Assembly (NCBI GenBank): GCA_021773365.1
Contig: JAJFKF010000042.1
Span: 1-64,000, forward strand
DNA length: 64,000 nucleotides
Source of the DNA: Gammaproteobacteria bacterium
GTDB lineage: Bacteria; Pseudomonadota; Gammaproteobacteria; Steroidobacterales; Steroidobacteraceae
Direction of reading: 5' to 3'
The notes below the pieces were generated by a model. That model had not been told where the DNA came from, ran no database searches, and saw only the letters and a program-made list of their open reading frames with translations. Of the stretch, positions 17,241 through 39,220 are shown piece by piece. Positions within the stretch are counted from its first letter, which is position 1. Every line of letters begins with the position of its first letter. A program made the translations under genes and the position numbers.

Positions 17241-18716
17241 ATGTTGTCAATTCTGGTGGGCCATTCGTACTTTCTATGCTTCGATCGCAAGCAATTCGAG
17301 CGCGCGCGACCCTATCCGCCCCTGGCCACGCTACACACCGCCGCTCTGCTGCGCGCAGCCGGCCACCAGGTCGCCCTGTTCGACGCCATGCTGGCCGATG
17401 GCGCCGCTGACTTCGCGACGCAGCTGGGACAACAGCGCCCGCAGGTGGTGGTGCTCTACGAAGACAACTTCAACTACCTGAGCAAGATGTGTCTGGCGCG
17501 GATGCGCCAGGCCGCCTGCGAGATGATTGCCATGGCGCGCTCGCGGGACGCGGCGGTCATCGTCGCGGGGTCCGACGCCACGGACGCCCCGCAACCCTAC
17601 CTCGATGCGGGCGCCGATGCGGTGGTGGCGGGCGAAGGGCTTGCGGCCCTGCTCGCGCTGATCGGACGGCTGGACAGCGCGCCGCAGCTGCGCGCAGCAC
17701 AACTCGCCGCCGGCATTGCCGGCATGGCGGGTCACGCCGGTCAGGCCGGACGCGATGACCCGGGAGCGGCAGACCACCCGACCACCGCACCGCCGCCGCT
17801 GCTGAGCCAATCCACGCTGCCGGCGTGGGATCTGATAGACGCGGCGGGCTACCGGAACATATGGCGCCGCGCGCACGGCTACTTCAGCCTCAACATGGCG
17901 GCCTCACGTGGTTGCCCGTTTCATTGCAACTGGTGCGCGAAGCCGATCTGGGGCAACCAGTACCTGCAGCGTCCGGCCGAAGAGGTGGCTGCGGAAATGC
18001 GGCACCTGAAAGAACACTTCGCGCCCGACCACATCTGGTTTGCCGACGACATCTTCGGCTTCCGCCCCGCCTGGGTGGAGACCTTCGCCGCTGCCGCCCG
18101 CGTCGGCGGCATGGTGCCCTTCACCATCCAGAGCCGTGCCGACCTGATGAGTGAGCGCATGGCTGCGGCGCTCGGGCAGGCGGGCTGCGTGGAAGTATGG
18201 ATCGGCGCGGAGAGCGGCAGTCAGCGCATCCTCGACGCCATGGACAAGGGTACCCGTGTCGATCAGATTCTCACGGCGCGGTCGCGACTGCGCATGCATG
18301 GCATCCGCGTAGGTTTCTTCATCCAGATCGGCTACCTGGGTGAAGAGCTGCACGACATCCTGGCCACCCGCGAGCTGATCGACAGGGCGCAGCCGGATGA
18401 CATCGGCGTCAGCGTCTCCTATCCATTGCCCGGTACGCCGTTCCACGACACAGTGAAGGCGCAGCTGCGCGGCAAGACCCACTGGAGCGAAAGCAACGAC
18501 CTCGCCATGATGTTCAAGGGCACCTACCGTTCGGAGTTCTATCGCGCCGTGCGTAACCTGCTACACCGGCAAGTCGAAGTGCAGAAGTTGAACGGTCCAT
18601 GTGAGGACGGCGTCCACACCGACGCCCGCATGGAACTGCAGGCGCGCTGGTCAACACTGCTGCAAAGCGAATCCCGCTACCGGACGGAACCCGCCGATGC
18701 CTGCACCACGGCCTGA
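17241..18716 (+). CDS. B12-binding radical SAM protein
   Basis: 491 residues from the ATG at 17241, preceded by a GGCAGG ribosome site. The first 150 residues look like a cobalamin-binding Rossmann domain (YPPLATLHTAALLRAAGHQVALFDAML, then AGADAVVAGEG). The radical SAM domain follows, with the cluster motif CPFHCNWC and an FADDIFGF strand. This is the class B (HpnJ/BchE-like) architecture, used for methyl transfers to carbon and for ring rearrangements. It opens the tailoring-enzyme locus and points towards the HprK-like gene, ending 10 bases before that gene's end. The substrate is unknown. Confidence 0.9.
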   Translation: MLSILVGHSYFLCFDRKQFERARPYPPLATLHTAALLRAAGHQVALFDAMLADGAADFATQLGQQRPQVVVLYEDNFNYLSKMCLARMRQAACEMIAMARSRDAAVIVAGSDATDAPQPYLDAGADAVVAGEGLAALLALIGRLDSAPQLRAAQLAAGIAGMAGHAGQAGRDDPGAADHPTTAPPPLLSQSTLPAWDLIDAAGYRNIWRRAHGYFSLNMAASRGCPFHCNWCAKPIWGNQYLQRPAEEVAAEMRHLKEHFAPDHIWFADDIFGFRPAWVETFAAAARVGGMVPFTIQSRADLMSERMAAALGQAGCVEVWIGAESGSQRILDAMDKGTRVDQILTARSRLRMHGIRVGFFIQIGYLGEELHDILATRELIDRAQPDDIGVSVSYPLPGTPFHDTVKAQLRGKTHWSESNDLAMMFKGTYRSEFYRAVRNLLHRQVEVQKLNGPCEDGVHTDARMELQARWSTLLQSESRYRTEPADACTTA

Positions 18717-18726
18717 GCCGGCTCAT

Positions 18727-19749
18727 TCAGCTGCTGCGAATGCCACGGCGCGCCTGCCGCCGCTCAAGCAGGCCGCACAGCGCAGCCACCGACTCCCTCG
18801 GATGCGAGGCCCGTTTCAACTCGAAAGCGCCGATACCGGACAACCGGGCATCAAAGGCCTTCCAGCCGGGCAGGCCGGCCGCGTAAGGCTGGCTGGCCGC
18901 GAGCCGCTCACGGCAGAGCCGGGGCGCAAGCGGCGCCAGCAATGCACCCTTGCCGGCAGAGCGGCCGGAGACAAACACGATGCCTGCAATCCGCAACGGG
19001 GCCGGCGCAATCCGCCAGCCCCTGCCTCTCAGGTCCACCTCATATTTTTCCACGCCGCTGCGCCGGCAGATGACAGGGGAGCGGCGAATCCGCGCGGCGA
19101 GCGCCGGGCTATCGACAAACCTCAAGGCTTCATCACGCAGATGCAGGAAATTCGCAACGCCGGTTGCCCGCAGGGAAGCCGGCTCGATGAACACCGCATC
19201 CTCGGCCAGGACATCCAGGTCCTGCAGCATGCCGTGCAGGGCCAGCGTGGATTTTCCCGCTCCGCTGGCGCCGATCAGCAGCAGACCGCTGCCATCGCGC
19301 CCGATGCAGCCGGCGTGCAGCGGCACCAGACCCTGCGCGCGACTGGCCAGCGTGAAAACCGCAAACTCCAGCAGTTCGTAACGGGCGTGATAGGGAAAGC
19401 GCAGCAACTGACGCGAAATCGAGACCAGTCCGGCGCGCAGCTGTGGACACACGATGGCGAAATTCGCGGTATCCATCACCCCACACAGAAAACGCCCGTC
19501 GCCCTGAGTACGCAACGGCGGCGGCTCGCGCACGGCGCCCAGGCTGCTGCCGGATGTCAGCTGCAGCCTGATGTTGAAACGCGGGGAGTCCGCCGACAAC
19601 CGTTGAGGTCGCAGGCCGCGCCAGCTCTCATCGACCAGGCGCAGCAGCCGCGCATCATCGGCGGCAAAATGAAATGCTCCACCCAGCACCGTCAGCCGCC
19701 TGCGGAATCGGGCAGGCGGCTGTTCGCCGAAAGGATCCTTCTCACTCAT
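18727..19749 (-). CDS. HprK-related kinase
   Basis: 340 residues from the ATG at 19749, chosen because upstream codons run into the divergent gene. A P-loop (GASGAGKS, residues 160-167) follows the HAGCIGRDGSG motif typical of HPr kinase-like proteins, with an acidic LAEDAVFIEP strand after it. The region before the P-loop has no separate DNA-binding fold. Homologues phosphorylate a serine of the lasso peptide paeninodin and occur in other natural-product and exosortase-linked loci, so the substrate need not be HPr. Its start codon overlaps that of the divergent nucleotidyltransferase, which suggests shared regulation. Confidence 0.8.
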   Translation of the reverse strand: MSEKDPFGEQPPARFRRRLTVLGGAFHFAADDARLLRLVDESWRGLRPQRLSADSPRFNIRLQLTSGSSLGAVREPPPLRTQGDGRFLCGVMDTANFAIVCPQLRAGLVSISRQLLRFPYHARYELLEFAVFTLASRAQGLVPLHAGCIGRDGSGLLLIGASGAGKSTLALHGMLQDLDVLAEDAVFIEPASLRATGVANFLHLRDEALRFVDSPALAARIRRSPVICRRSGVEKYEVDLRGRGWRIAPAPLRIAGIVFVSGRSAGKGALLAPLAPRLCRERLAASQPYAAGLPGWKAFDARLSGIGAFELKRASHPRESVAALCGLLERRQARRGIRSS

Positions 19750-21043
19750 GACAGCCATCATACCCATGAAGCGGGCTGACATGACCCTGCCCTCACTGCC
19801 GCCGTTGCGGACGCTGGAAGCGGCGCTGCACATGACCACCGGGCATCTGGTGCGTGAGATCACCCGGCCCACCGCACAGGCGCCGCAGTGGACCGCTCTG
19901 GAGTGGCGCATCGCGGAGGCCGCCGCCGTCATTCACGGTATTGGCGCACTGCTGGCCTGCAAACTGCAGTGGCGGGGCCCGGCGCGCTGGGAGCAGTTCC
20001 TCGCTGGCCAGAAACATCACACACGGCTGCGACGCCAATACATCGCCAAAACACTGGCCCGTCTCGACGACGCCATGCACCAGGCCGGCATCGCCGCCGT
20101 GGCGCTCAAGGGGTCAGCCCTGTATGACATCGGCCTGTATGCCGGACAGGAGCGGCCGATGGGCGATATCGATCTACTCGTCAGGGAAGAGGACAGCGAT
20201 GCGGCGGCACGCCTGCTGATCGCACTGGGATATCAGGAAAAGGCCAGCACCGAGCGCCACCGCGTCTTCGAGCCCGCCGGACAGGACGCAGGCAAGGCCG
20301 GTTTCGGTGAGCACATCGACAATCCGCTGAAGATCGAGCTGCACACGCGCATTGCCGAACGCCTGCCGGTCTACATTACCGATATCACTGCGCTGGAGTT
20401 TCCGCGCCAGCCACGCCCCGGGCTGAACCCCTATTCGTCCATCGCCGCGCTGATGCGTCATCTGCTGTTGCACACCTCATGCAATATCCGCGCGCGCGCG
20501 CTCCGCGCCATCCAGCTCCACGACATTGCATTGCTGGCGAGCCGCATGAACGACGGGGACTGGCATGAACTGACACGGGAGCGTGACGGCGTGCGCGGCC
20601 TGTGGTGGGCGCTACCCCCCATGGCGCTGACCGAACGCTACTACCCCGGAAGCGTGTCACCGGCAGCCCTGCAAGCCGCCACGATCGGATGCCCGCGGCT
20701 GCTGCGCCGCGCCGTGCGCCGCCATACTCTCGCCGATGTGTCCTGGTCGAACCTGCGCGTGCGCGCCTTTCCGGGTATCGAATGGTCGCATTCCCTGCCG
20801 GAAGCACTGCAGTTCATGACAAGCCGTATCTTCCCCGCCCGCCGGGATCTGGCGCTGCTGCGCCAGATACCCGCCCGGCGACCGTACGGGGAGGCGACGC
20901 AATGGTACGGACTGTCGCATATCAACCGCATCGCGCGCTGGGTCTTCTCCCATCCGCCGCGCGTACAGACGATTTATCCGATCAAGGTGGCGCTGGGGAT
21001 CGAGCCGGGGGCAGGATCTGAACAGGAGCTCCTGCGGCCATAA
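19748..21043 (+). CDS. Uncharacterised nucleotidyltransferase (NTP_transf_5 type)
   Basis: 431 residues from the ATG at 19748; an ATG at 19781 is equally possible and would avoid overlap with the divergent kinase start. The nucleotidyltransferase core is VALKGSALYDIGLYAG followed by RPMGDIDLLV, with acidic pair D140 and D142. The C-terminal two thirds are helical. Proteins of this family commonly neighbour HprK-like kinases in natural-product loci, but the nucleotide acceptor is not established. It begins a plus-strand series with a methyltransferase (26-base gap) and a GT-B-like gene. Confidence 0.75.
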   Translation: MTAIIPMKRADMTLPSLPPLRTLEAALHMTTGHLVREITRPTAQAPQWTALEWRIAEAAAVIHGIGALLACKLQWRGPARWEQFLAGQKHHTRLRRQYIAKTLARLDDAMHQAGIAAVALKGSALYDIGLYAGQERPMGDIDLLVREEDSDAAARLLIALGYQEKASTERHRVFEPAGQDAGKAGFGEHIDNPLKIELHTRIAERLPVYITDITALEFPRQPRPGLNPYSSIAALMRHLLLHTSCNIRARALRAIQLHDIALLASRMNDGDWHELTRERDGVRGLWWALPPMALTERYYPGSVSPAALQAATIGCPRLLRRAVRRHTLADVSWSNLRVRAFPGIEWSHSLPEALQFMTSRIFPARRDLALLRQIPARRPYGEATQWYGLSHINRIARWVFSHPPRVQTIYPIKVALGIEPGAGSEQELLRP

Positions 21044-21069
21044 GCATGGTGGGGATCCTTTGAACGAAC

Positions 21070-21957
21070 ATGTCACATAGCCTCAACCGGGATCCACAGA
21101 CGGACATTCTCCCTCCCCCGGAAGAGATCTCGCTGCGGCTGCAGCAGACGCAGGAAGCGTTTGACAGCGTCGCATCCGACTATGACGGACCTCGCGGCAA
21201 CAACCTGCTGATCCAGGAGATGCGCGCCGAGATGTGGCGGTGGCTGGACGCAACATTCTCCGCACCGGCTCATCTGCTCGATCTGGGGTGCGGCACGGGC
21301 CTGGACGCGGTACGCATGGCGCAGACCGGGCACCGCATTACCGCTACCGACTGGTCCGGACGTATGGTGGAGCGCACGTGGGAACGCGCCGTCAGCGAGG
21401 GCGTGGCGGATCGGGTGCGCACCCTGGCCGTGGGCTCACACGAACTGCATCGCATTGCAGGCGATGCGGCATTCGACGGCGCCTACTCCAACCTCGGGCC
21501 GCTCAACTGCATACCCGACCTCACCGCGGTCTCCAGCGAATGCGCGCGGTTGATCAAACCCGGCGGCACGCTGGTCTTCTCCGTCATTGGACGTATCTGC
21601 CCCTGGGAAATCGCCTACTACATGTACAAACGCCAATGGGCGCGGGCCAGGGTGCGTTTTGCCCGCGGCACGATTGCTGTGGGCATGAACCGCCGGACAG
21701 TCTGGACCCGCTACTACAGACCACGTGAGTTCTACCGCGCCTTTGAACGCGATTTCACGCTTGCCGGCTTTCGCGGTCTGTGCCTGTTTGCCCCGCCTCC
21801 CTATCTGACATGGATGCGCCAGCGTCATCCACTTGTTTATCAACGGCTGTGGCGCGTCGACCGACTGTGTTCCGGGTGGCCGCTGCTGCGGAACATGGGC
21901 GATCATTTCCTGGTCGTAATGCGCAGACGATCGCCGGAATCACGCAAGCCAGAATGA
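21070..21957 (+). CDS. Class I SAM-dependent methyltransferase
   Basis: 295 residues. The SAM-binding motif LLDLGCGTGLDAVRMA lies at about residues 73-88, then TDWSGRMVE and the acidic loop region around AAFDGAYSNLG. The C-terminal half is longer than in minimal methyltransferases and rich in aromatic residues, perhaps shaping a large acceptor. Its stop overlaps the start of the next gene (ATGA), so it is coupled to the GT-B-like protein. The acceptor is unknown. Confidence 0.9.
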   Translation: MSHSLNRDPQTDILPPPEEISLRLQQTQEAFDSVASDYDGPRGNNLLIQEMRAEMWRWLDATFSAPAHLLDLGCGTGLDAVRMAQTGHRITATDWSGRMVERTWERAVSEGVADRVRTLAVGSHELHRIAGDAAFDGAYSNLGPLNCIPDLTAVSSECARLIKPGGTLVFSVIGRICPWEIAYYMYKRQWARARVRFARGTIAVGMNRRTVWTRYYRPREFYRAFERDFTLAGFRGLCLFAPPPYLTWMRQRHPLVYQRLWRVDRLCSGWPLLRNMGDHFLVVMRRRSPESRKPE

Positions 21958-23528
21958 CCGCCGCCGAGTATGCCGCCATCGCCGCCGCCTGTGATCGCCT
22001 GCTGCAGTCGTCACGGACGACGCTCGCGCGTATCGCCATCCCGATACTGCATGTGATCAATGAACACCCGGGGTACATGGGTCAGTACAGGCCTCTTTTC
22101 CCGTCTTTCCCGACCGGACCTGCCAACTCGCGGCCCCGGCCCGCCTCGGACACCATCGCGGTGCGCGCCGCCCGGCAGCTGGTGCGTTCGCTGCAATTCC
22201 AGGCATCGCAGGCAGGCAAACGGCCCGCCGGGCGCATCGATGTACTGATCGTTTCCCGCGTCGCGAATTACGCACAACTGCGGCAGGGAGATGACTTCTA
22301 TTTCGGCGGTTTGCAGCGCCTTCTGAATAACCGCGGAGCCACCTCGGCAACACTCCTGATCAACCACATCCCGCAAATGGAAGCGCCGCCAGGGAACGAA
22401 GAAAATTGTGATCAGACGCGCTCGCTGCTACCCCGCTCGGTATCGCCCGGCACCGAGGCCCGGATCTGGCGCCAATGCCTGAGCACATCGCTGGAATTGC
22501 GACGCCAGGCTCGCAACACAGACCACCCGCTCGATAAGGCAGCTGCAACCCTGGCGGGCCGCCATGCACTGATCGGCGGCACCGCAACAAACCTGCGCCT
22601 GCACGCCGTCATCTCCAAAGTATGTGATGCCCTGAATCCGGGCATGGTCATCACAACTTATGAAGGCGCGGCCGCCGAGCGCATGATCTGGCACGCGGCA
22701 CGGGGTCACGGGCGCCGGCCGCTGTGCGTCGGCTACCAGCACGCCGTACTGCTGCCGCATGCCCACGCAATCCGGCGTCCAGTCGGTGCGCCAGGCATTG
22801 ACTGCGATCCGGACCTCATCCTCACCCTTGGGGAAACCACCAAAGACATCCTGGCTGCCAGCCCGGCACTGTCTTGCGTTCCGATGATTGTTTACGGCTC
22901 GCACCGGCGCGTGCCGCCGCGGCAGTCTCTCCCATTCGATGAACGACCCCACCTGTGCCTGGTACTGCCGGATGGCGATCAGCGCGAATGCGCCATCCTG
23001 TTCGATTTCGCATCGTCCTGCGCCCGCCGCTTTCCGCAGGTCACATTCCTGTTTCGGCCCCATCCGGGTATGTCTGTCTCCCCGCATGCTGGCTACGATA
23101 CCTTGCGCGACCTGCCGCCAAACCTGCAGCTGTCAGCTGGCGGTTCGCTCGAGCAGGACTGCGCGCTGGCGCGCTACTGCCTGTACCGGGGTTCCTCAGC
23201 TGCGATGTCCGCCGTACTGGCCGGCGTGAAGCCATTCTATCTGGCGAGGAAGGGGGAACTGCCTTTCGACCCTTTGTCCGGACTGACCGACTGGCACGAG
23301 ACTGTATTGACGCCGGAGGAATTCATGGTACGTGCGCAAGCCACGGATGCGGCATCAGACCACACCACGGCGGAGCTCGGACAGGCGTTTTGCGACCGTT
23401 ATATACGGCCCGTACAGCCGGCAGCCATCGACGAATTGCTGGACAAATACCGGGCTGCCGCAGCCGGGCGACATCCGGATCAGGACATCGTGCGCAAACG
23501 CCCGGCCGACACCGGCTCCACGGCTTGA
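21954..23528 (+). CDS. GT-B-like surface-polysaccharide-type glycosyltransferase
   Basis: 524 residues from the ATG at 21954, which overlaps the methyltransferase stop. The C-terminal half shows features of GT-B-fold capsule or polysaccharide enzymes: CVGYQHAVLLPHAHAIRRP, DPDLILTLGETTKDIL, FLFRPHPGM and YCLYRGSSAAMSAVLAGVKPFYL, the last resembling the donor-binding loop of epimerase-like glycosyltransferases. No membrane span or signal peptide is seen, so it is cytoplasmic. Its 3' end overlaps the convergent dehydrogenase gene by 49 bases. The glycosyltransferase call is by fold resemblance; donor and acceptor are unknown. Confidence 0.6.
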   Translation: MTAAEYAAIAAACDRLLQSSRTTLARIAIPILHVINEHPGYMGQYRPLFPSFPTGPANSRPRPASDTIAVRAARQLVRSLQFQASQAGKRPAGRIDVLIVSRVANYAQLRQGDDFYFGGLQRLLNNRGATSATLLINHIPQMEAPPGNEENCDQTRSLLPRSVSPGTEARIWRQCLSTSLELRRQARNTDHPLDKAAATLAGRHALIGGTATNLRLHAVISKVCDALNPGMVITTYEGAAAERMIWHAARGHGRRPLCVGYQHAVLLPHAHAIRRPVGAPGIDCDPDLILTLGETTKDILAASPALSCVPMIVYGSHRRVPPRQSLPFDERPHLCLVLPDGDQRECAILFDFASSCARRFPQVTFLFRPHPGMSVSPHAGYDTLRDLPPNLQLSAGGSLEQDCALARYCLYRGSSAAMSAVLAGVKPFYLARKGELPFDPLSGLTDWHETVLTPEEFMVRAQATDAASDHTTAELGQAFCDRYIRPVQPAAIDELLDKYRAAAAGRHPDQDIVRKRPADTGSTA

Positions 23529-25582
23529 CCGGCCAGACAGGCGGCGACTTTCTGCACCACCTCTTCTGCCGCGGCAGCATGCATGTCCGCGGATCCACCC
23601 GCGATATGAGAAGTCAGGAACACGTTGGGAAGTCTGCGCAGTGGATGCAAGGCCCTCATGGGTTCCTCTTCATAGGTATCCAGGCAGGCAAAGATATCGC
23701 CGCGTCTCAACCTGGTGAGCAGGGCCACGGGATCGATCAGCGCACCGCGCGCGATATTGATCAGTATCGTCCCCGGTCGCAGTTTGTCGAGTTCAGCGAC
23801 GCCAAGGAAATGCCGCGTACTTCTGTTCAGCCCGCGATGCAAGGATACGATGTCGGCCGATAACGCCTCACCCAGGGATGCGGGAGCCGCCCCCGCCCGC
23901 CGGATCTCAGCCGACGACGCATGTTCCGAATACACCAGAACCCTGGCCCGCAGTCCAGCCAGAAGCCCGGCAAAGGCACGTGCATTCGCACCCCAGCCGA
24001 TCAGGGCCACGGTGGCGCCCTGAAGCTGGCTGGCTTCCGCCAGCTGCGCCCCGGAACCCTCGACCAGCGGACCGCCCTTGCGCCAGATGCCGACAAAGAA
24101 ACGCTCCAGCCCTGCAGCTCTGGCGAAGGGGCGTGTTTGCTGCGCCAACCACCGCAGCCGGCCGCGCCATCCCGACCGGCGCAGATCAATTCCCCAGCCA
24201 CCGCGACGCATGATTTCATGAGACAGGAAAGCCCGACGACGACCCAGAATGGCCAACCCCAGCGCAAACTCTGCGACACTCCGAGCGTAAGCAGCACTGG
24301 CATTGACCAGGGCGATATCGCGCGCCAGCAGCGATTCCGGGGCGTACCTCGCAAATGAAAGCCCGGCGATTCCGACGACGGTCAGGCCGGGGAGTCTGGC
24401 CAGAACATCCTCCGGCAAACAGGAAGCCCCCCGACCCAGAATTGCCGCCACAATGTCAGGCCGCGATTGCGCAGTCTTCCGCACCTCATCAAGAGAAACC
24501 AGCCGGTACCGCGACAGCAGGGTCGTCAACGCCGGCTGCAATGCAGCCGGTTCCACCACCAGGATGGAATTCACCGCGGATTCCGTCACTGCTGTAGCTG
24601 GGGGTTCGGTCTCCGGCAGCCGTACACGTCCGTTGTGCCCGCTTTCGATCAGCTCGGCGAGAAACAGCGACGGCGCTATTGCATCGATGCCATTGAGAGG
24701 CGCAACGCCTGCCTGAATCGCCTGCACAAAAGCCTCATGCTCAGCCGCGACGCCGTCGCCCAGCGCAGGAAATGGCGTTCTGAGAACGGAGCCGCTCTTC
24801 GAAAATATGAGTTCGGCGTCCGTGACCGTACAGGTCTCGCCATAGCCATGAAAGACATACTCCTCGCGCCGCGCGCCCGCGTTGTTGTTGCAGAGAAATA
24901 CACCCTGACTGCCATTGGCCCAACGCATCACGGCGCAGAACATGGCGGGGTCGGCCGCCCCCGCCTCCCCTACGACGGCGGTCAGCTGCTCCGGCAAGCC
25001 TCCCATCATCATGAGCAGTGCGTCCAACGCATGGATGCCGTTCGCACCCAGCCATGTCCGTGCACCGAAGGGCGGCGGCCTGCCGGATTCGGACTTGTGG
25101 AAGACTGCCTCGGCGAAACGCCACCCAGCGCGCCCGGCATGCACGCGCGCGGCGGCCAACGCCCGGTAGAACCTGCGGTTGTGGCCACCCGCGGCGATCA
25201 GTCCGTTGGTGGACGCAAGCCTGGCCAGCTCGCTCGCTTGTGCATACGAGGGCGCAACCGGCTTTTCGACAAACAGATGCTTGCCGTTGCGCAGCGCCAG
25301 CATCCCATATTCATAGTGCAGCTGAGCGCTTCCCAGAATATACGCGGCGTCTATGTCAGAGCGCCGCAACGCGGCGGCGCCATCCGTGCTCGCCTCCATG
25401 AATCCAAAATTCTTCCGGGCTGCCGCCGCCCGCTCGCTAACCACATCACAAACGACGGCGAGCGTGAGTACGCCACGATCACGCAGCCGGGCGAGAACCG
25501 GCAGGTGCATTGCGACCGCAGCCGGCCCCGCACCGACGACCAGAACACGAAGCGGTGAGGCAGTTCTTTGTTTGCTTGTCAT
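23480..25582 (-). CDS. Fused Gfo/Idh/MocA oxidoreductase and D-2-hydroxyacid dehydrogenase
   Basis: 700 residues carrying two dehydrogenases. Residues about 10-330 match Gfo/Idh/MocA: an NAD-binding start VLVVGAGPAAVAMHLPVL, the EKP motif in LFVEKPVAPS, and an AAGGHNRRF region. Residues about 345-700 match the D-isomer 2-hydroxyacid dehydrogenases: GWGANARAFAGLLAGL, INIARGALID with the substrate Arg, YEEEP and TSHIAGGS with the catalytic His. Both halves keep key residues, so both may be active. Such a fusion is unusual and suggests two consecutive redox steps on one sugar- or hydroxyacid-like intermediate. It lies between the plus-strand series and the SPASM protein, divergent from the latter. 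Confidence 0.88.
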   Translation of the reverse strand: MTSKQRTASPLRVLVVGAGPAAVAMHLPVLARLRDRGVLTLAVVCDVVSERAAAARKNFGFMEASTDGAAALRRSDIDAAYILGSAQLHYEYGMLALRNGKHLFVEKPVAPSYAQASELARLASTNGLIAAGGHNRRFYRALAAARVHAGRAGWRFAEAVFHKSESGRPPPFGARTWLGANGIHALDALLMMMGGLPEQLTAVVGEAGAADPAMFCAVMRWANGSQGVFLCNNNAGARREEYVFHGYGETCTVTDAELIFSKSGSVLRTPFPALGDGVAAEHEAFVQAIQAGVAPLNGIDAIAPSLFLAELIESGHNGRVRLPETEPPATAVTESAVNSILVVEPAALQPALTTLLSRYRLVSLDEVRKTAQSRPDIVAAILGRGASCLPEDVLARLPGLTVVGIAGLSFARYAPESLLARDIALVNASAAYARSVAEFALGLAILGRRRAFLSHEIMRRGGWGIDLRRSGWRGRLRWLAQQTRPFARAAGLERFFVGIWRKGGPLVEGSGAQLAEASQLQGATVALIGWGANARAFAGLLAGLRARVLVYSEHASSAEIRRAGAAPASLGEALSADIVSLHRGLNRSTRHFLGVAELDKLRPGTILINIARGALIDPVALLTRLRRGDIFACLDTYEEEPMRALHPLRRLPNVFLTSHIAGGSADMHAAAAEEVVQKVAACLAGQAVEPVSAGRLRTMS

Positions 25583-25695
25583 GTCAGAATTCAGCCATCA
25601 AACATCCTTACCGTGCTTGCAATTCCACATCTGCCTGCCGACAATGCCAGCGCGCCCGCAATGAAGCGGCGATCCCGACTGAGAAAGGCGTCTTC

Positions 25696-26790
25696 ATGCT
25701 TCATATCCTTCGCAGAGCGAACGAACATATGCTGCCGTCGCATCTGTTTTTCGGTCCGACGCATGTGGTGCTCGGCGTCAACAATTTCTGCAATCTGCGC
25801 TGCCTGATGTGCGATGTCGGCACCGGGAACGATGAATCGAATTTCGGCGCCAACCTGGTGGGCGCAAAAACCCGATCGATGCCCTTCTCCCTGTTCCAGA
25901 GAATTGCAGATCAAATGGCTGCTTTCTGTCCGAACGCCCACCTCGCCTTCAGCTTCACTGAGCCGCTGGCTTGGCCGCATCTGGGAGAGGCCCTGAGCTA
26001 TGCGCACGATCTCGGCTTGTATGCCTCCGTGACAACCAATGGGCTGCTGCTGCCCCGCTGTGCGGAAAAGTTGGCAGCCGGCCGCTGCCGGAATCTGTCG
26101 GTTTCGCTGGACGGACCTGAAACAGTTCATGACCGCATCCGCCGGCGCAACGGCAGCTTTGCGCGCGCGGTCGCCGGCATCAAGGCGGTGGCTGCAATGC
26201 AAGGCGCACCGGATATTGCAGTGTTCTGCACCATCACGGAGTGGAACGTCGGAACGCTCAGGGAGTTTCTGCGAGTCATGAGCGATCTGCCGCTCAAGCG
26301 GGTCGCTCTGATGCACAACAACTTCGTCACGGTCGAACAGGCAGGCCGGCACAACCTCACGTTCGACGGAGACTTCCATGCCACAGCGTCCAATGTATTC
26401 GAATCGAACCCGGAACGGATCGACCTGAGCGGGCTGTCGCAGGAGCTGATGCAGATCGAACGGACCTGCTACCCTTTCGCTGTCGTGATCCAGCCTCATC
26501 GGACCAGTCCGGGCGACCTGGAGACTTACTACCGGCGGCCGGAGGCGTTCATTGGCCGCCGCTGCCACGATGCCAACCGCATCATGATGATCGACTCCGA
26601 CGGCGAGGCGATCCCAGTCCACGGCCGCTGTTTCCGTTTTCCCATAGGCAACATCCAGGCGCTGACGCTCAAACAGATCTGGAATCACGAGAAGAATTCA
26701 TTGTTGAGGCACACACTGAAGAAGGCGGGGGGTCTGCTTCCTGCCTGCAGCCGTTGCTGCGGGGGATTTGGTTCGGCTGGTCGCGCCTGA
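25696..26790 (+). CDS. Radical SAM protein with SPASM-like C-terminus
   Basis: 364 residues from the ATG at 25696, which has an AAAGG ribosome site. The cluster motif is CNLRCLMC near residue 32, followed by the SFTEPL and TTNGLLL strands of the radical SAM barrel. The C-terminal region has spaced cysteines (RRCHDANRIMMIDSDG, GRCFRFPIGNIQALTLKQIW, CSRCCGGF) that fit a SPASM/twitch auxiliary cluster domain. Such enzymes often modify peptides or carry out dehydrogenations. It overlaps the end of the convergent ABC exporter gene by 122 bases. The substrate is unknown. Confidence 0.88.
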   Translation: MLHILRRANEHMLPSHLFFGPTHVVLGVNNFCNLRCLMCDVGTGNDESNFGANLVGAKTRSMPFSLFQRIADQMAAFCPNAHLAFSFTEPLAWPHLGEALSYAHDLGLYASVTTNGLLLPRCAEKLAAGRCRNLSVSLDGPETVHDRIRRRNGSFARAVAGIKAVAAMQGAPDIAVFCTITEWNVGTLREFLRVMSDLPLKRVALMHNNFVTVEQAGRHNLTFDGDFHATASNVFESNPERIDLSGLSQELMQIERTCYPFAVVIQPHRTSPGDLETYYRRPEAFIGRRCHDANRIMMIDSDGEAIPVHGRCFRFPIGNIQALTLKQIWNHEKNSLLRHTLKKAGGLLPACSRCCGGFGSAGRA

Positions 26791-28504
26791 CAATGCGACC
26801 GCCTGCAAGCTCCATGATCACGTCGCACGCCCGCGCAAGTCGCGCCTGATGGGAAATCAGGATTATCGTGTAGCGCCCGCGCAGACGCTTCAGCGTCTGG
26901 ATCAGCTCATCCTCCGTCATGCTGTCGAGCGCGTTCGTCGCCTCATCCAGTATGAGCACGGCAGCGTTTTTGTAGAGCGCACGCGCAATGCCGATCCGCT
27001 GGCGCTGTCCACCACTGAGTTTTGCGCCCCGTTCACCGATCCTGTAGTTCAGGCCACCAGGCAGGGTGCTTATCAGGGCGCCGAGCTGCGCCAGCTCGAT
27101 GGCCATTTCCAGTCGGTTCCGGTCGATCTGCGCATCCGGCACGCCAAGCGCGATGTTGCCTGCGAGCGTCGTATCCAGCAAAACGATGTTCTGCGGCACA
27201 TAGGCTATGCGTGACTGCCATGCCTCGCGATTGCACTCATCCAGCCGCACGCCATCCACCTCGACCTCTCCCGCAGAGGGCGCCAGCAATCCCGCAATGA
27301 CATCCGCGAGAGTCGTCTTCCCGGAGCCGTTTGCACCGGTGAAAGCCGTCGCTGTCCCGGCCTCAATGCACAGCGACACGCCGTCAAGCGCCTGGCCTTG
27401 CCGGCTGTCATAACAAAATGAAACCTCACGCAGGAGGATTTCCCGCTGCGGGCAACCCTGCCAGGTGAGCTCCGTCGCAACTGCATGCGGTCTGGTTCTC
27501 GCGAGACGCAGATCCGGAGCTATGGACTCGAAGCTCGCGCGCGCGGCGCTGATTTTCACCATGGCTGCGAATATCTGCTGCAGCATCGGCAGGAGTCGGT
27601 AGGCCGCGAAGGCAAGGAACGTCAACTGCCCGAGCCACAAGCCGGTCTTCTGCTCATGCCAGCCCAGCACCAGGGCTGCGGCCACGAGACCACCGACCGC
27701 CACGCACTCCATGAGGTACTTTGGAATTTTCTCGACGAAGCGGGTGCGGGCGGAAGTCATCAACGTACCACTGCTCGCACGCCTGAAGCGGCTGCCGAAA
27801 AACAGCTGGGCGCGAAAAATCATGATTTCCTTGATTGCGGAGAAGGTTTCTCCGAGGATCTGCAGCCCTTCCCGGGAGTGGCGGGCACGCAGCCGCCCCC
27901 AGTGCAGCAACCGCCTGCGCAGGATGGCGAAGATCAGCACATAGCCGCCGGCCAGAACGGCCAGCATCACCAGCGCCAGCGCCGGATTGAGCACGACCAC
28001 GGCCAGCACAATCAGCGCGGCGGTAACCAGATTCGTGACCAGCGTCAGACCTTTCTGCAGAATATCGGTGGTGACGTAGGTGGTCTCGTGGATGATGCTG
28101 TTGACGAGTTTCGCGCTGTTGGTACGGGCGTGGAAGATATAGGGTCGGGCGAGGTACTCTGCGAACAAGGTGACGCGCATGTCATTGCCGATCCGCCACG
28201 CCAGGCGATTGAGAACAAAGCTGCCGGCAAGGTTGACCACATTGGCGAGCAGTACCAGCGCAACGAATGCCACACCGAGCCAGACGGTAAAGTCATGTCG
28301 GCTGTCGGGATTTACCCAGGCATGCAGCCACTGCAGCAGCCCGGAGTGATCGACCGCCTGCGGATCGCTCAGAACCGCAAAGAAAGGACCGATGGAGGCG
28401 ATGCCCGCCAGAGTGGAGAAAGCCATGACCAGAGAAAGCACCTGAGCGGCCAGCACCCAGCGGCGTTGCTGAGGGGTCAATATGAGCCATACCTCGCGTA
28501 GCAT
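26669..28504 (-). CDS. ABC exporter, fused permease and ATPase
   Basis: 611 residues. Residues 1-330 form the six-span exporter membrane domain; about 345-590 form the ATPase with Walker A (GANGSGKTT), signature (LSGGQRQR) and Walker B (VLILDEATN). The layout is that of MsbA/PglK-type flippases or peptide exporters, with no N-terminal peptidase domain. A 30-residue hydrophilic tail beyond the usual end overlaps the SPASM gene. It is the last gene of the minus-strand tailoring operon and likely exports or flips the product. Confidence 0.92.
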   Translation of the reverse strand: MLREVWLILTPQQRRWVLAAQVLSLVMAFSTLAGIASIGPFFAVLSDPQAVDHSGLLQWLHAWVNPDSRHDFTVWLGVAFVALVLLANVVNLAGSFVLNRLAWRIGNDMRVTLFAEYLARPYIFHARTNSAKLVNSIIHETTYVTTDILQKGLTLVTNLVTAALIVLAVVVLNPALALVMLAVLAGGYVLIFAILRRRLLHWGRLRARHSREGLQILGETFSAIKEIMIFRAQLFFGSRFRRASSGTLMTSARTRFVEKIPKYLMECVAVGGLVAAALVLGWHEQKTGLWLGQLTFLAFAAYRLLPMLQQIFAAMVKISAARASFESIAPDLRLARTRPHAVATELTWQGCPQREILLREVSFCYDSRQGQALDGVSLCIEAGTATAFTGANGSGKTTLADVIAGLLAPSAGEVEVDGVRLDECNREAWQSRIAYVPQNIVLLDTTLAGNIALGVPDAQIDRNRLEMAIELAQLGALISTLPGGLNYRIGERGAKLSGGQRQRIGIARALYKNAAVLILDEATNALDSMTEDELIQTLKRLRGRYTIILISHQARLARACDVIMELAGGRIVRRDQPNQIPRSNGCRQEADPPPSSVCASTMNSSRDSRSV

Positions 28505-28513
28505 GTCCGCTCC

Positions 28514-28726
28514 TCAGGTCGCCTTGCCGCGGATGTCGCGCAGCAGCGGCGGCCACCAACAGCACGACAAACAATGCCGGCAGGATGCGCCGGGCGCAAA
28601 GAACACATCGACGCCAACGCAACCTCCGCCAAAACCGGGAACGTCGGCGTGGTAAAACACCACGGCAATAACGGCGATCGCCCTTAACCCGTCGATGTCA
28701 GGCCGGTAGGTGGGCGCAGTCCGCAT
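28514..28726 (-). pseudogene. Remnant of an acyltransferase-3 (OafA/YrhL-like) gene
   Basis: The 70-codon frame starts with [20 protein letters not shown], the hallmark N-terminus of acyltransferase-3 membrane enzymes, and runs to GVDVFF. Immediately after, the sequence continues in another frame as [19 protein letters not shown], which in intact enzymes lies some 30 residues further on. About 30 codons have therefore been deleted with a frameshift, and the rest of the gene (normally 350-650 residues) is missing before the ABC exporter start. Its ATG sits just after the stop of the B12 radical SAM gene. O-acylation of the product was probably once part of this pathway. Confidence 0.8.
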
Positions 28727-28727
28727 C

Positions 28728-30242
28728 TCAGAGTCCCGAAATCCGCGGATCCCACAACCGGATAAACCGCCTGGAGAAATCAAGCTCCCACGGACGGCCG
28801 TAGCGCCCGTAGCTGTAACGCCAGGAGGCCAGTCCCCGCAACGCCGCCTTGCCCCAGGCCGGCGAGCGCACGTCGGTGATCGTCGGGAAACGACATCCCA
28901 GCACTGTGCTGAAATCGCGGATCCGCTCACGCAGGCGCGGCGTAAGCCAGGGTGTGTCCGTGTGGCACCAGTAGGCCGACCACTGTGGTTCGGCCCACTC
29001 CTGCGCGGTAGCTGGAAACACCAGCGGCGCACCGTCGCTGCCGCGCAGGGCGGCGATGGTGCGCTCCACATGCGGACTGGCTTCGCCCGGCGCCGGCGGC
29101 AGTGGCGCGTAGACGTACAGCATGATCTCGGTGCGCGGATGCACCCGTTTGATGTGGCGGATGAACTCGAAGGTCCGCTCCGTCTCGCCTTCCGGATCCT
29201 GCGGCGGAGCAAGCATGAAGGACAGCTCGGGAATCACGCCGTTACGGCGACAGATCTCGACCGCTGCCAGCGTCTGGTCGGTGGACGTGCCCTTGCGCAT
29301 GTCATGCAGCAGCCAGTCACTGGGCGACTCGGCGCCGATGTAGGCCATGCGCAGGCGGCTCTTGCGCACCAGCGCCCAGGATTGCGGTGAGAGATTCAAC
29401 AGCGCATCGGAGCGGGCGAAGCACCACCACGGCAGCTGCAGCCTCGCCAGCACTTCCAGCAGCGGGGCGGTATCTTCCTCGCGATCGAAGAAGTTGTGAT
29501 CAAAGAACTGAATGGAATCCGCGCCATAACGCTCGACCAGAAACTGCAGTTCCGCCTCGAGTCGCTGCGCCGTCGGCAGCGCGGTCTTGCCGCGGAACAT
29601 CGCCGCCACACCACAGAAGGTGCAGCGGAAGCGGCAGCCCAGCGCCGCCTGCAGCCCGCTGGTGCGCTGTCCGAGAAAGGTTCTGCCCAGGTACTGTTGC
29701 GGATCGCCCAGGCGCTCGTACGGCAGCCGGCGCAGCATGCCGGCCGCGGAGAACGGACGGCGGGGGTTATGCACGATCCCTTCCGCGCCCCGCCATGACA
29801 GTCCGGCGATCGCGGCGGGTGGGCGGGCAATGCCACCGAGTATGCTGTCAAGCAGTTCAACAAACGTGTCCTCGCCCTGCCCCCTGACGGCATAGTCGAC
29901 ATAGGGCGCCGCCAGGCTGGCCTCCGCGCAGATGGTCGGGAAGTGCCCGCCCCAGATGATGGGCACGGCCGGGAAACGCTCGCGGATGGCCCGCGACAAT
30001 AGGATGGCGGTGCGCAGCTGCGGACCACCCATGACGCTGACACCGACGGCGTCGATACCGCCCACTTCGATCCTGCGCAGCGCGGTGGCGATGAAGTGCC
30101 GATCAACGTTGCCATCAACTATGGAGGAGGCGTAATGCCCCTCCAGCGCCGCGGAGAGATTGAGCACCGCAAATGGAAAACGCGCATTGCGTCGTTTGGT
30201 GATGGCCGGGTTGACCAGCAGGATGTGCCCGCGCGCGCTCAT
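28728..30242 (-). CDS. B12-binding radical SAM protein
   Basis: 504 residues. The N-terminal cobalamin-type domain (residues about 5-150) includes [27 protein letters not shown] and IIWGGHFPT. The radical SAM domain has cluster motif CRFRCTFC and the strand IQFFDHNFF. This is the second class B-like enzyme of the locus and differs clearly from the one at 17241. Its start overlaps the amidohydrolase stop (ATGA), and the stop precedes the acyltransferase remnant by one base, so it belongs to a coupled minus-strand operon. C-methylation or a radical rearrangement is possible; the substrate is unknown. Confidence 0.92.
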
Positions 30243-31414
30243 GCGGCCCGCCAGTGCGCAGCCACCAGCTCCAGCCCCGTTTCAGCCGCACCCGCCCGCG
30301 ACAGCAGCGCGGCAATCCTCGCATCAAGCACCATCGCCCTGCCGTCCACCCGCGCCCTGGTCCAGTCGATGGCGGGCGATACCGGTTCCGCGTAATGCTT
30401 CTCGCCGTATCGGGCGACGCCATCGATCACCACCAGCCGCACTGACTCCCGGTCCACTGCCCACAGCGGCGTTCCGGCAGCCAGGACGAGAAGATCGGCC
30501 ACCGCGCCCGTTTCGAGTCTGCCCCGCTCCGGCATGCGCAGCAGGCACGCCGCGCGGTGCGTCACCAGTGGCAGCAGCGCCGCCTCGGTCATACCACTGC
30601 TGCGGTGCGCGATGCGCAGCTCCGCCAGCAGATCGAATGCTCCGCTCAGGCGCGAATCCGTGCCCAGCGTCACGCGGCCGCGCGCCACCAGGTCATCGAC
30701 CTGCGCCGTGCGGCCGAACAGCGCGGTGTTTGAAGACGGACACCACACCAGTCCCCCACCCGCATCGGCAAGCCGTTGCCGCTGCGCATCCGTCAACGCG
30801 ACGCCATGCACGAGCAGGGTGTCGGGCCCCAGGCAATCGAGCGCATCCAGGCGTTCGAATTCCTCCGCGGCCGCGGCGTCGATGCCCTCTGCCGCGTGAA
30901 TGATCCATGGTTGGCCCGCCGGCGTAGCGCGACATGCAGTGCGGACCTTCTCCTCCCCATCGAGGTACAGGGAATGCGACCAGCCATAGCGGGCGAGGAC
31001 ACGCACCGGGAAATCCGCGCCGGCGAGCGGCGGGTAGAACGGATCGTGATGGGCCACGGTGGTCACGCCGGCCAGCAGGTTCTTCATGCCGCCCGTGAGC
31101 AGCCGCGCATCGCGGCACACCGCCACGCCGGCCGCGAACGCCGGGTCCGCGCGGCGATGCGCGTCCACGTCTTCTATCCATTCGCGCACATGCCGGTAGC
31201 GCCTGCCGAAGTCCGCCGGTGGCAAGCCGTTGAGCTGCAGATGATCGTGCGCGTTGATCAGCCCGGGCAGCAGCCGGTCACCACACAGATCGATCACCCG
31301 ATCCTGCGGATGCGGCCGCCCGCCGATCGCCGCGATGCGCGGACCGACGACCCGCAGGCTCGCGGCCGGCTGCGCCTCGCCCATGTCGGCATTGATGAAG
31401 GTGATGGCGTTCAT
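30239..31414 (-). CDS. Metal-dependent amidohydrolase (TRZ/ATZ-like)
   Basis: 391 residues from the ATG at 31414, chosen for its ATGA overlap with the methyltransferase stop; the longer open frame upstream is antisense-free shadow of that gene. Metal ligands are visible: H56 and H58 in NAHDH, His in IHAAEG, His in LVHGVAL and the catalytic Asp in LGTDSRLSG. The flanking beta-sandwich segments (INADMG at the start, GAVADLLVLA near the end) are also present. The family deaminates or hydrolyses C-N bonds on heterocycles and related compounds. Within this operon it probably acts on a pathway intermediate. Confidence 0.88.
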   Translation of the reverse strand: MNAITFINADMGEAQPAASLRVVGPRIAAIGGRPHPQDRVIDLCGDRLLPGLINAHDHLQLNGLPPADFGRRYRHVREWIEDVDAHRRADPAFAAGVAVCRDARLLTGGMKNLLAGVTTVAHHDPFYPPLAGADFPVRVLARYGWSHSLYLDGEEKVRTACRATPAGQPWIIHAAEGIDAAAAEEFERLDALDCLGPDTLLVHGVALTDAQRQRLADAGGGLVWCPSSNTALFGRTAQVDDLVARGRVTLGTDSRLSGAFDLLAELRIAHRSSGMTEAALLPLVTHRAACLLRMPERGRLETGAVADLLVLAAGTPLWAVDRESVRLVVIDGVARYGEKHYAEPVSPAIDWTRARVDGRAMVLDARIAALLSRAGAAETGLELVAAHWRAA

Positions 31415-32082
31415 TTGCGCGCGCGGACCACCAGTACAATGGGCACGCCGTGCCAGCGACGATAGAAGTCCTCGCAGCCCGGAAAGGTTTCGCGCATCTG
31501 CACGCCGACACGGATCTCCTGAACCGTCTCCACGTTCAACCCGGCCGCCGTCATGACCCGCCCCTGCAGCGCCGTATCGTAACGGCGGTGCGGCACCTTG
31601 CAGGTGCGCTGGTCGCGATCTTTGAAGGCGCGGACGATGCCCGCCTTCGTAGCCTCGGGATGGAAATCGGAGTAAAGAAAAGTGCCGCCGCGATCGAGTA
31701 CGCGAACCACCTCCGCCACCCAGCGGCGGAACGAACTCGCATGCCCCGCAGCCAGTCCGCTGACCACCAGGTCGAAGGACGCGTCCGCGAACGGCAGGCG
31801 CATCATGTCTGCGCGCACTTTCGTGCCGGAAATCATCCTGGCCAGCATGGCCGCACTGAAATCCAGAGACACGATCCGCGCGACTCCGCTCGCCTGCAGC
31901 AGCCGCGAATAGCGGCCCGTGCCGCAGGCGAGGTCCAGCGCACTGCCCGCAGTGGCCCGCGGCCAGCATTCCAGCATGGCGCGCTGCTCGGCGCGCATCA
32001 GCGGATTGTGCGGTTCGGGTTCGTAAAGCGGCGCCCAGCGTTCGTAGGCCGCGAGCGTCGTCGCCGACACGGTGCTTCTCAT
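31411..32082 (-). CDS. Class I SAM-dependent methyltransferase
   Basis: 223 residues from the ATG at 32082, which overlaps the stop of the radical SAM gene as ATGA. The SAM motif ALDLACGTGRYSRLL is at about residues 48-62, then SLDFSAAMLARM and MMRLPFADASFDLVVSGLA. It resembles UbiE-like methyltransferases. Both ends overlap neighbours, so it is firmly in the minus-strand tailoring operon. The acceptor is unknown. Confidence 0.9.
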   Translation of the reverse strand: MRSTVSATTLAAYERWAPLYEPEPHNPLMRAEQRAMLECWPRATAGSALDLACGTGRYSRLLQASGVARIVSLDFSAAMLARMISGTKVRADMMRLPFADASFDLVVSGLAAGHASSFRRWVAEVVRVLDRGGTFLYSDFHPEATKAGIVRAFKDRDQRTCKVPHRRYDTALQGRVMTAAGLNVETVQEIRVGVQMRETFPGCEDFYRRWHGVPIVLVVRARK

Positions 32083-33173
32083 GCATTCACTGCCGGCAGC
32101 AGCGATGCCGCATCGGCGCCGGGTTCGCGCCACAGCGAGCACACACATCTGGCGCACTCGGGGCGGCGGCCACCCCTGATGTCCCGCCGCAATGCCACCA
32201 TGGCGTCATCTTCCAGCACCGCGGCAAGGCCGTCGCCCGCCACGGCCGGACCGGGAATAAAGAAGCACGGATGGACCCGCGAACCGGCATCGATCACCGC
32301 GGAAAACTCCGGCGCATTGCAGCGCACCGGCGGATACGCCGCGCGTCCCTGGATGGCGGCGAAGTACTGGTGGATGCGGCGAAGCTTATCCGGATGTTCC
32401 ACGATGAAGCCCGTGGCGAAGTCCCCGGCGCATTCCCGCTCCAGGTGGCTGATGAGTCCATCGAACAGGGGGAGGTCCTGCGGTCCCAGCGCCAGGTCGG
32501 CGGCAAAGCCTTGTTCGCGGCCGAAGGCGTGGGGGTTGGCGATATCGACGGCAAGAAACGAAACATCGCGCGCGCGCAGACGCCGCGCCAGGCCGACAAA
32601 CACCGCCAGCTCGCGATAGTTCGCCCGCTGCAGCGTCACCCGGATACCGGCCGGCAGGCCGGCGTCGGCGACGGCGCGGATGCCTGCACACACCTTGCCG
32701 AAGGCATCCAGCCCGCGGATGGCGGCGTAGGTGGCGCGGCAGGTACCGTCCAGCGAAACGGTGACGGCATCAAACAACTCACTCACGCGCCGGGCATGCT
32801 TGGCCAGCGACAACCCCGAACTCAGCAACCACAGCTTCATGCCCCTGTCGCGCAGCAGGCGCGCGATCCGCTCCCACTCGGGATTGAGCAGCGGCTCCCC
32901 GCCGGAAACCAGCACCACGCGGGTATCGAGCGCTGTGAGGTCGGGTATCAGACGGCTGACCGCCTCCAGATCGAGATCCTTCCGGCCGTGACGCCAGTAA
33001 TCGCAGGTCACGCAGCGGGAATTGCACCGTTCGGTCAGGTACAGCACCGCCAGCGGCAGGGAGCGCTTTGACAGATTGTTTTGAAGGGGTTGACGCAACA
33101 CGTTGCCGGTGAGTACCGGAATGGCGAGCGCGGGTTCAATGCGCCCGACCGGGCACACTGAACCCGCGTTCAC
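32079..33173 (-). CDS. Radical SAM protein with SPASM-like C-terminus
   Basis: 364 residues starting at a GTG; other starts within the first 30 codons are possible. The cluster motif is CNSRCVTC near residue 50, followed by LVSGGEPLLNPEW and VSLDGTCRATY, all typical of peptide-modifying and PqqE/MoaA-like radical SAM enzymes. The C-terminus has cysteines in VRCNAPEFS, VHPCFFIPG and CARCVCSLW, consistent with an auxiliary cluster. It is the first gene of the minus-strand operon and is divergent from the methyltransferase at 33238. Confidence 0.9.
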   Translation of the reverse strand: MNAGSVCPVGRIEPALAIPVLTGNVLRQPLQNNLSKRSLPLAVLYLTERCNSRCVTCDYWRHGRKDLDLEAVSRLIPDLTALDTRVVLVSGGEPLLNPEWERIARLLRDRGMKLWLLSSGLSLAKHARRVSELFDAVTVSLDGTCRATYAAIRGLDAFGKVCAGIRAVADAGLPAGIRVTLQRANYRELAVFVGLARRLRARDVSFLAVDIANPHAFGREQGFAADLALGPQDLPLFDGLISHLERECAGDFATGFIVEHPDKLRRIHQYFAAIQGRAAYPPVRCNAPEFSAVIDAGSRVHPCFFIPGPAVAGDGLAAVLEDDAMVALRRDIRGGRRPECARCVCSLWREPGADAASLLPAVNA

Positions 33174-33237
33174 CTGGCCACGACAGGGCGCATGGATGCT
33201 ATCGTGCGCAGCGCCGTAGCGTAGTCAGTATTCAGGG

Positions 33238-34137
33238 GTGCAGGCAACTGTCGTGAATGACCAGCGATCCGCAGTACCGCCCGGTCTGCTCGGAGACACC
33301 ACCGCGCGGGACTACGCGCGCAAGCTGCAGTTGTTCAATGCCTTTGCCGAACCGGAACTGCGCCGGGCCATCGCCGGTCTCGAACTTCGGCCGGGTATGG
33401 ACATCCTGGACGCCGGCTGTGGCAGCGCAGAGGCGCTGCGGTGGCTGGGTGCGGCAGCCCATCCGGCCGGCCGACTGGTCGGCATGGACCTGGCGGTGGC
33501 CCATGTCAGGACGGCACTGCCGCATGCTCCGCCTTCCAGCCTGATCGTACAGGGTGATCTGCGCCAGCTGCCGTTCCCCCCGGGCAGCTTCGATCTGATC
33601 TGGTGCGTCAACACCATCAATCACCTCCCCAACCCGCTGCAGGCGGTGACGGAACTGACGGCGCTGCTGCGTCCCGGCGGACGAATCGCGCTGGGGCAAA
33701 GCGCCCTGCTGCCCGGCATGTACTTCGCATGGGACGCACGCCTGGAGCGGCGGGTCGAGGAGGCGGTGCGCCGCTACTACCGGGAACGCTACGCCGTCGA
33801 TGAGCGCAGGCTGACGGGGATACGCGCATTGGTGGGCCTGCTGCACGGAGCGGGCCTGCGGTCAATCGACGCAAAAACCCACGTCATCGAACGAATGCAA
33901 CCGCTGCGGCCCGAGGACGAAAACTACCTGCTCGAGGCGATCTTCCGCGGCACCTGGGGCGAACGGCTGCGCCCCTACCTCGCGGCCGACGATCAGGCTG
34001 AGCTCGACCTTCTATGCGATCCGCGGCAGGAAGGCTTCGCGCTGCGCCGGCCGGATTTCCATTTTCTTCAAACCTTCACCCTCGTGACCGGTGTCAGGCC
34101 GTTGAATCACGGACATCCGATGCGCATGACGGGGTGA
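33238..34137 (+). CDS. Class I SAM-dependent methyltransferase
   Basis: 299 residues from a GTG; a second GTG five codons later could equally be used. The SAM motif is ILDAGCGSAEALRWLG, then GMDLAVAHV and QGDLRQLPFPPGSFDLIWCVNTINHL. This is the third methyltransferase of the locus and reads away from the minus-strand operon over a 64-base intergenic gap. It ends 25 bases before the S9 peptidase stop. The acceptor is unknown. Confidence 0.88.
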   Translation: MQATVVNDQRSAVPPGLLGDTTARDYARKLQLFNAFAEPELRRAIAGLELRPGMDILDAGCGSAEALRWLGAAAHPAGRLVGMDLAVAHVRTALPHAPPSSLIVQGDLRQLPFPPGSFDLIWCVNTINHLPNPLQAVTELTALLRPGGRIALGQSALLPGMYFAWDARLERRVEEAVRRYYRERYAVDERRLTGIRALVGLLHGAGLRSIDAKTHVIERMQPLRPEDENYLLEAIFRGTWGERLRPYLAADDQAELDLLCDPRQEGFALRRPDFHFLQTFTLVTGVRPLNHGHPMRMTG

Positions 34138-36313: not shown

Positions 36314-36324
36314 GCATGCCTCGC

Positions 36325-39075: not shown

Positions 39076-39127
39076 GAATGAACCCTTCCGAGTCTGATCT
39101 GACAAAATTACTGACACGTCCATTGCA

Positions 39128-39156
39128 CTAGACGACTCAGAACGACAATCCCGACA
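39128..39156 (-). promoter_or_regulatory. ECF-type promoter of the TBDR/S9 unit
   Basis: Minus strand: TGTCGGG (39156-39150), 15-base spacer, CGTCTAG (39134-39128), about 53 bases upstream of the TBDR ATG. The same two elements at the same spacing precede the adjacent sigma gene. CGTC-type -10 elements are common for ECF sigma factors. Confidence 0.65.
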
Positions 39157-39220
39157 TTCCCTTGTGAGCCTGCTCGGGCCATGAAAGCCACAGCAGACAC
39201 GGCGCTACGCAAACCGGCTT

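Follow-up and report, generated by a model that had tools for sequence, protein, structure and literature searches.

A gene cluster with four radical SAM enzymes in a Steroidobacteraceae genome, probably for an exported and heavily tailored saccharide or glycoconjugate

In the biosynthesis of the lasso peptide pseudomycoidin, the kinase PsmK phosphorylates the terminal Ser and the nucleotidyltransferase-like protein PsmN is needed for the one or two hexoses (PMC8498205, PMC9266682). A comparable pair of genes lies in the window analysed here (64,000 nucleotides of the 90.4-kb contig C94, from a draft Steroidobacteraceae genome of 3.97 Mb in 157 contigs), within a cluster at positions 17241-34137 that also encodes four radical S-adenosylmethionine (SAM) enzymes and an exporter and that probably, judging from sequence comparisons, builds an exported, heavily tailored saccharide or glycoconjugate. 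The likeness to the lasso clusters of pseudomycoidin and paeninodin (PsmK, PsmN) consists in the pairing of an HPr-kinase-like protein (B; gene letters as listed below) with a nucleotidyltransferase-like protein (C); here, however, there is no lasso cyclase, protease, PqqD or precursor, and the pair goes with the radical SAM enzyme A and with glycosyltransferases. C is likened to PsmN by its pairing with the kinase.

Other described systems share different parts of the locus. Saccharide and exopolysaccharide clusters with radical SAM tailoring resemble it in having B12 enzymes beside GT4 and GT2 glycosyltransferases, an acyltransferase, a sulfotransferase, a deacetylase and a flippase-type exporter. 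On the other hand, our locus adds the kinase, an NTP_transf_5 protein, an amidohydrolase and a dehydrogenase fusion, no polymerase or initiating transferase was seen in it, and A reaches only 96 of the 400 bits demanded by the model TIGR04295. The flippases PglK and MsbA align with nearly the full length of the exporter H, which nevertheless stays below both NCBIfam cut-offs (230 of 1000 bits for PglK and 272 of 602 bits for MsbA). TsrM, MgmA, OxsB, CysS, TokK and AprD4 share the predicted fold of I, which is only 14-18% identical to them; its substrate and reaction are not predictable from theirs. AprD4 acts on an aminoglycoside and shares the cobalamin radical SAM fold without methylating.

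Gene calling and scans against Pfam and NCBIfam resolved 13 intact genes (A to M) in the interval, none of which reached a curated NCBIfam cut-off. The features are as follows.

15133-17027, minus strand: two outer genes, porin-like and cytochrome/CopC-like (orthologues beside A or L in relatives)
17241-18716, plus strand: A, B12-binding radical SAM enzyme (both Pfam domains, B12-binding and Radical_SAM, above cut-off; accompanies L in all 12 genomes that carry L)
18727-19782, minus strand: B, HprK-like kinase (NCBIfam HprK_rel_A, 37.9 bits; start uncertain, with a longer frame to 19932)
19748-21043, plus strand: C, NTP_transf_5 protein (Pfam, 93.3 bits)
21070-21957, plus strand: D, SAM methyltransferase (Pfam Methyltransf_25/11; orthologues in the relatives' clusters)
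21954-23528, plus strand: E, protein without family assignment in Pfam or NCBIfam, possibly a glycosyltransferase
23480-25510, minus strand: F, Gfo/Idh/MocA oxidoreductase fused to a D-2-hydroxyacid dehydrogenase (Pfam)
25729-26790, plus strand: G, radical SAM/SPASM protein (Pfam; no orthologue in the related loci fetched)
26669-28504, minus strand: H, ABC exporter/flippase (NCBIfam MsbA 272 bits, PglK 230 bits)
about 28540-28723, minus strand: relic of an AT3 acyltransferase gene (tblastn against intact relatives; Pfam Acyl_transf_3, E 4.6e-4)
28728-30242, minus strand: I, B12-binding radical SAM enzyme (Pfam; orthologues 58-74% identical in clusters of the family)
30239-31414, minus strand: J, amidohydrolase of TRZ/ATZ/deaminase type (Pfam Amidohydro_1; motifs invariant in 5 orthologues)
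31411-32082, minus strand: K, SAM methyltransferase (Pfam; also in G887, G883, G912, G623 and UCB3)
32079-33173, minus strand: L, radical SAM protein with SPASM-like C-terminus (Pfam; in 12 of 150 family genomes)
33253-34137, plus strand: M, SAM methyltransferase (Pfam; orthologues in the clusters of G332, G910, G912, G832, G887 and G809)

This inventory bears out most of what a preliminary description had read from the sequence: two B12-type (A, I) and two SPASM-like (G, L) radical SAM proteins, three methyltransferases (D, K, M), an HprK-like kinase and a nucleotidyltransferase, a fused dehydrogenase, an amidohydrolase, an ABC exporter and a dead acyltransferase between the exporter and I. 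The overlapping starts and stops it mentioned are found as 4-bp overlaps at four same-strand joins (D/E, I/J, J/K and K/L), and the scans likewise detected no polyketide synthase, nonribosomal peptide synthetase, PqqD or lasso core within the interval.

The evidence that these genes belong together comes from their recurrence. L was found in 12 of 150 genomes of the family, that is, in the source genome and 11 of the 149 others, and all of those 11 also carry A; B, C, D and I are present in most of them, the gaps falling partly on short contigs. In a sample of the order, A was found in only 7 genomes, none of them among 12 family genomes of that sample in which L was not found. The preliminary description had taken failure to co-occur elsewhere as what would speak against a pathway; the gene set occurs together in at least 12 other genomes and is not a chance collection. 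Two sub-blocks are stable across the relatives (G numbers denote genomes): A-C-B, to which D, M and a GT4 enzyme are often added, and L-methyltransferase-(J)-(second B12 enzyme)-I-(GT4)-(GT2)-H. In the second, the methyltransferase slot after L holds K, always with J next to it, or an unrelated enzyme of MTS type, and then J is missing. A similar set without L exists in another family of the same class, where G623 carries D-J-K-I-GT4-GT4 together with A, C and B within 13 kb, and K, J and A stand side by side on a contig of the isolate UCB3; the gene content of these two very GC-rich contigs was read by tblastn. The J homologue of UCB3 is split over two frames (L004:3220-4306), by decay or assembly error. 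The distances of A, B, C, D, H, I and L correlate with one another (r 0.28-0.82), which fits a shared history but equally a shared species phylogeny and is not taken as proof.

The company kept by these genes points to glycans. The clusters of relatives contain glycosyltransferases (GT4 and GT2), acyltransferases (AT3 and AT3-SGNH), a sulfotransferase, a polysaccharide deacetylase and a gene of the fatty-acid-hydroxylase family. In G261 the A pair comes after genes that by eye resemble those for UDP-glucose dehydrogenase, uronate epimerase and glucose-6-phosphate isomerase, and more glycosyltransferases are present there. Of the marks of a saccharide cluster, glycosyltransferases are seen in the relatives, with the unassigned E as the only candidate in the window's copy, and an export system of flippase or ABC type is present as H, which is MsbA/PglK-like. 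Residues 1-571 of H align with residues 1-560 of PglK in the PDB, almost the full length, and H is closest to transporters of polysaccharides or lipid-oligosaccharides of the MsbA/PglK/HepA type. The reading of the locus as a saccharide or glycoconjugate pathway draws support from this context and exporter, from the co-occurrence of A and L, the order of the sub-blocks and the similar set in G623, from the nearness of A to TIGR04295, MgmA and AprD4, the invariant catalytic residues and the AT3 relic, and from the precedent of a kinase and an NTP_transf_5-type protein acting on a phosphate-linked hexose (PMC8498205, PMC9266682). A modified sugar is the best of the products that the preliminary description had guessed; its statement that the cluster fits no known class stands as far as curated NCBIfam families go, none being matched, and was too strong in that the relatives' genes sit among glycosyltransferases, as in saccharide-type clusters.

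The radical SAM enzymes all retain the CxxxCxxC motif in their cores, and A and I combine this core with a B12-binding domain, as cobalamin-dependent radical SAM enzymes do. The best NCBIfam model for A is TIGR04295 (B12_rSAM_oligo; 96.3 bits, below the curated cut-off of 400), which together with MgmA and AprD4 makes up its nearest models and structures. I, modelled from 13 orthologues with a predicted local distance difference test (pLDDT) score of 84.9, resembles TsrM, MgmA, OxsB, CysS, AprD4 and TokK in its predicted fold (Foldseek E 1e-15 to 1e-20; 14-18% identity). The SPASM domain scores 25.8 bits in G, above the Pfam cut-off of 21.5, and 14.4 bits in L, below it; the C-terminal cysteines of L are kept in all but at most one of 12 orthologues. 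Comparison of L and G with viperin gave partial matches of the radical core only (45 and 34 bits). A defence system, for which PADLOC likewise gave partial matches only, was rejected as a reading. A fusion linking A to C, considered for the extra N-terminal domain of A in G261 and G359 with its nucleotidyltransferase-like motif seen by eye, is not claimed, as this domain has neither a Pfam match nor profile similarity to C.

With regard to the kinase, B matches Pfam HprK-like weakly (18.6 against 33.3 bits) and HprK_rel_A more clearly (cut-off 200 bits), and its P-loop is intact and conserved in 8 orthologues. C exceeds the NTP_transf_5 cut-off of 31.2 bits by far, its motif K-G-x-A-L ... R-P-M-x-D-x-D-L-L-V is unchanged in 6 orthologues, and this family occurs once in the whole source genome. 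The motifs HxH, HxxE, H and D of J are also invariant in its orthologues, and K adjoins J in each locus carrying J. F has a homologue in G887 only, 58% identical and also within the cluster.

A pathway can be proposed from these assignments, in which an acceptor would receive a short glycan from glycosyltransferases (GT4/GT2 in the relatives, perhaps E here). A, I, L and G could act on unactivated carbons, by C-methylation, dehydration or epimerisation; D, K and M would serve as further methylating enzymes, F would perform a redox step on a sugar-nucleotide or hydroxyacid, and J might take off an amino or amide-like group. B would phosphorylate a hydroxyl, and on this phosphate C would place a sugar or nucleotidyl group, after the model of PsmK and PsmN in pseudomycoidin. 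H would carry the product across the inner membrane. Several observations weigh against a saccharide pathway of this kind. The surroundings of the copies showed no initiating phosphoglycosyltransferase, no polymerase and no ligase, no genome-wide search having been made for them. The window's copy contains no recognisable glycosyltransferase, its sole candidate E having no assigned family, and the source genome gave no orthologue of either GT4 enzyme of the relatives (E 1e-15, with queries that match relatives at >50% identity), an empty result that is weak taken alone. Genes for NTP_transf_5 and HprK-like proteins are also known from lasso clusters, and the large distances to all named enzymes make guesses at substrates weak.

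Some of the same facts would suit a glycosylated small-molecule natural product (a pseudo-oligosaccharide, a nucleoside or an aminoglycoside-like compound) instead of a surface glycan. In that case the radical SAM enzymes and J would tailor a small core before its glycosylation and export. Both A and I have AprD4 among their nearest structures, J is a deaminase-type amidohydrolase, and each cluster has two or three glycosyltransferases only, with no polymerase or ligase seen. However, no core-forming synthase, such as an enzyme for an inositol or nucleoside scaffold, was recognised, and the sulfotransferase, polysaccharide deacetylase, AT3 acyltransferases and PglK/MsbA-like exporter favour glycans linked to lipid or surface. 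We consider this alternative unlikely, at perhaps one chance in a handful.

The window's copy differs from those of the relatives. H and I are separated by 223 bp, and here sits a fragment of an AT3 gene that over 37-42 residues shares 64-78% identity with intact relatives (tblastn, E down to 1e-12) and then breaks off; a further piece is present in another frame. Because an intact AT3 gene follows the exporter in G895 and G910, the fragment is taken as a relic of an ancestral acyltransferase-bearing cluster. The second B12 enzyme of the relatives has no match in the source genome (E 1e-30). E has 0 homologues in 274 genomes of the class, no Pfam or NCBIfam match and no convincing sequence relative in the PDB; its structure model is unusable (pLDDT 38.5), and it resembles only weakly the protein that occupies the corresponding position in G887 (single-sequence hhalign P 0.09). 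The GT-B label given to it earlier is consequently no more secure than a guess, and E is perhaps a candidate for the missing glycosyltransferase or glycosyltransferases of this copy. Altogether, the window's copy is a remodelled variant, without the GT4 enzymes, with the acyltransferase lost and with E, F and G as extra genes, and it may be in partial decay. That it should be a decaying remnant making no product, as the reduced AT3 gene and the failure to find the GT4 orthologues or a second B12 enzyme might suggest, is improbable: all 13 frames are open, invariant catalytic residues are kept, the 4-bp operon overlaps persist and F is common to the G887 cluster.

Least probable of all, to the point that we give it little credence, is a pathway for a ribosomally synthesised and post-translationally modified peptide (RiPP) or very short peptide, on which the SPASM and B12 enzymes, the kinase and the NTP_transf_5 protein would act: I does score best with the RiPP C-methyltransferase model TIGR03975 (79.5 of 281.85 bits), and the kinase and nucleotidyltransferase pair is known from phosphorylated, glycosylated lasso peptides, but no conserved short open reading frame (ORF), no PqqD and no peptide-cleaving transporter domain were found, the lasso-type loci are on other contigs and lack these genes, and the relatives show a glycosyltransferase context. 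The conserved short ORFs that the preliminary description had proposed to look for were absent from a comparison of 11 loci, in which the best match (E 0.002) was between two sister genomes and a very divergent precursor could have escaped. PqqD was absent among the ORFs and from the genome at E 0.01, a search that may miss divergent RiPP recognition element domains. The B2 protease and asparagine-synthase-like cyclase are absent among the window's genes and present only on contigs C85 and C82, where the two lasso-type loci of the source genome are located, both without the kinase or NTP_transf_5.

C85, 26010-33703: lasso-type locus L081, with B-like protease bearing Transglut_core3, asparagine-synthase-like cyclase and TonB-dependent receptor, also sigma/FecR
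C82, 127-2681: lasso-type locus L082, with B-like protease bearing Transglut_core3, asparagine-synthase-like cyclase and TonB-dependent receptor

A precursor-like ORF is seen in the former at 31757-31900 on the minus strand.

The lasso flavour attributed to the locus also drew on its neighbours at 34163-40677, where genes for an S9 peptidase, a TonB-dependent receptor, FecR and an extracytoplasmic function (ECF) sigma factor stand in a row that resembles lasso uptake and isopeptidase loci. Comparison did not support this. The block is absent from every related locus fetched and was rejected as part of the cluster, the S9 protein (34163-36313) is the best match to the Atxe2 lasso isopeptidase model NF033523 but scores 101.5 bits against its cut-off of 400, and the kinase/NTP_transf_5 pair travels with the B12 enzyme A and not with the two lasso-type loci of the source genome. 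The region 47550-63379 adds two more FecR genes, accompanied by TonB-dependent receptors and a sigma-like ORF, the contig being rich in such signalling receptor systems, and 42473-47287 encodes a protein of 1604 aa whose C-terminal part looks subtilisin-like by eye and whose N-terminal region is long.

On the other side of the cluster, the porin-like and cytochrome/CopC-like genes recur beside A or L in G895, G910, G809 and G832, and the porin alone in G912. A subtilase gene (11664-13037), whose orthologues adjoin A, B or C in G895, G910 and G912, is possibly part of a wider conserved neighbourhood. About 31 kb from the cluster, at about 65420-71550 of contig C94 (L038), lie genes whose orthologues (41-86% identical) directly flank the cluster in G336 and G348; by size and order they look like tig-clpP-clpX-lon, which suggests a shared ancestral insertion neighbourhood.

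Returning to the saccharide or glycoconjugate reading, it is possible, and we put it forward tentatively, that the locus represents an undescribed class of radical-SAM-rich glycoconjugate, in which B and C would attach a sugar or nucleotidyl group through a phosphate, the carbon skeleton would be reworked by two to five radical SAM enzymes and a dedicated exporter would serve the product, the class being patchily distributed across one bacterial order and beyond. Nothing usable was found in the literature on radical SAM polysaccharide clusters, of which subscription papers were covered in part, so that the lack of a description is unproven. Few radical SAM enzymes acting on sugars are characterised, and the locus would join several of them with HPr-kinase-type and nucleotidyltransferase-type folds in one conserved glycan-type pathway. 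The kinase/NTP_transf_5 decoration of lasso peptides could thereby be extended to another class of products, and the natural gains and losses of genes among about a dozen comparable loci should be useful for assigning roles to the individual genes.

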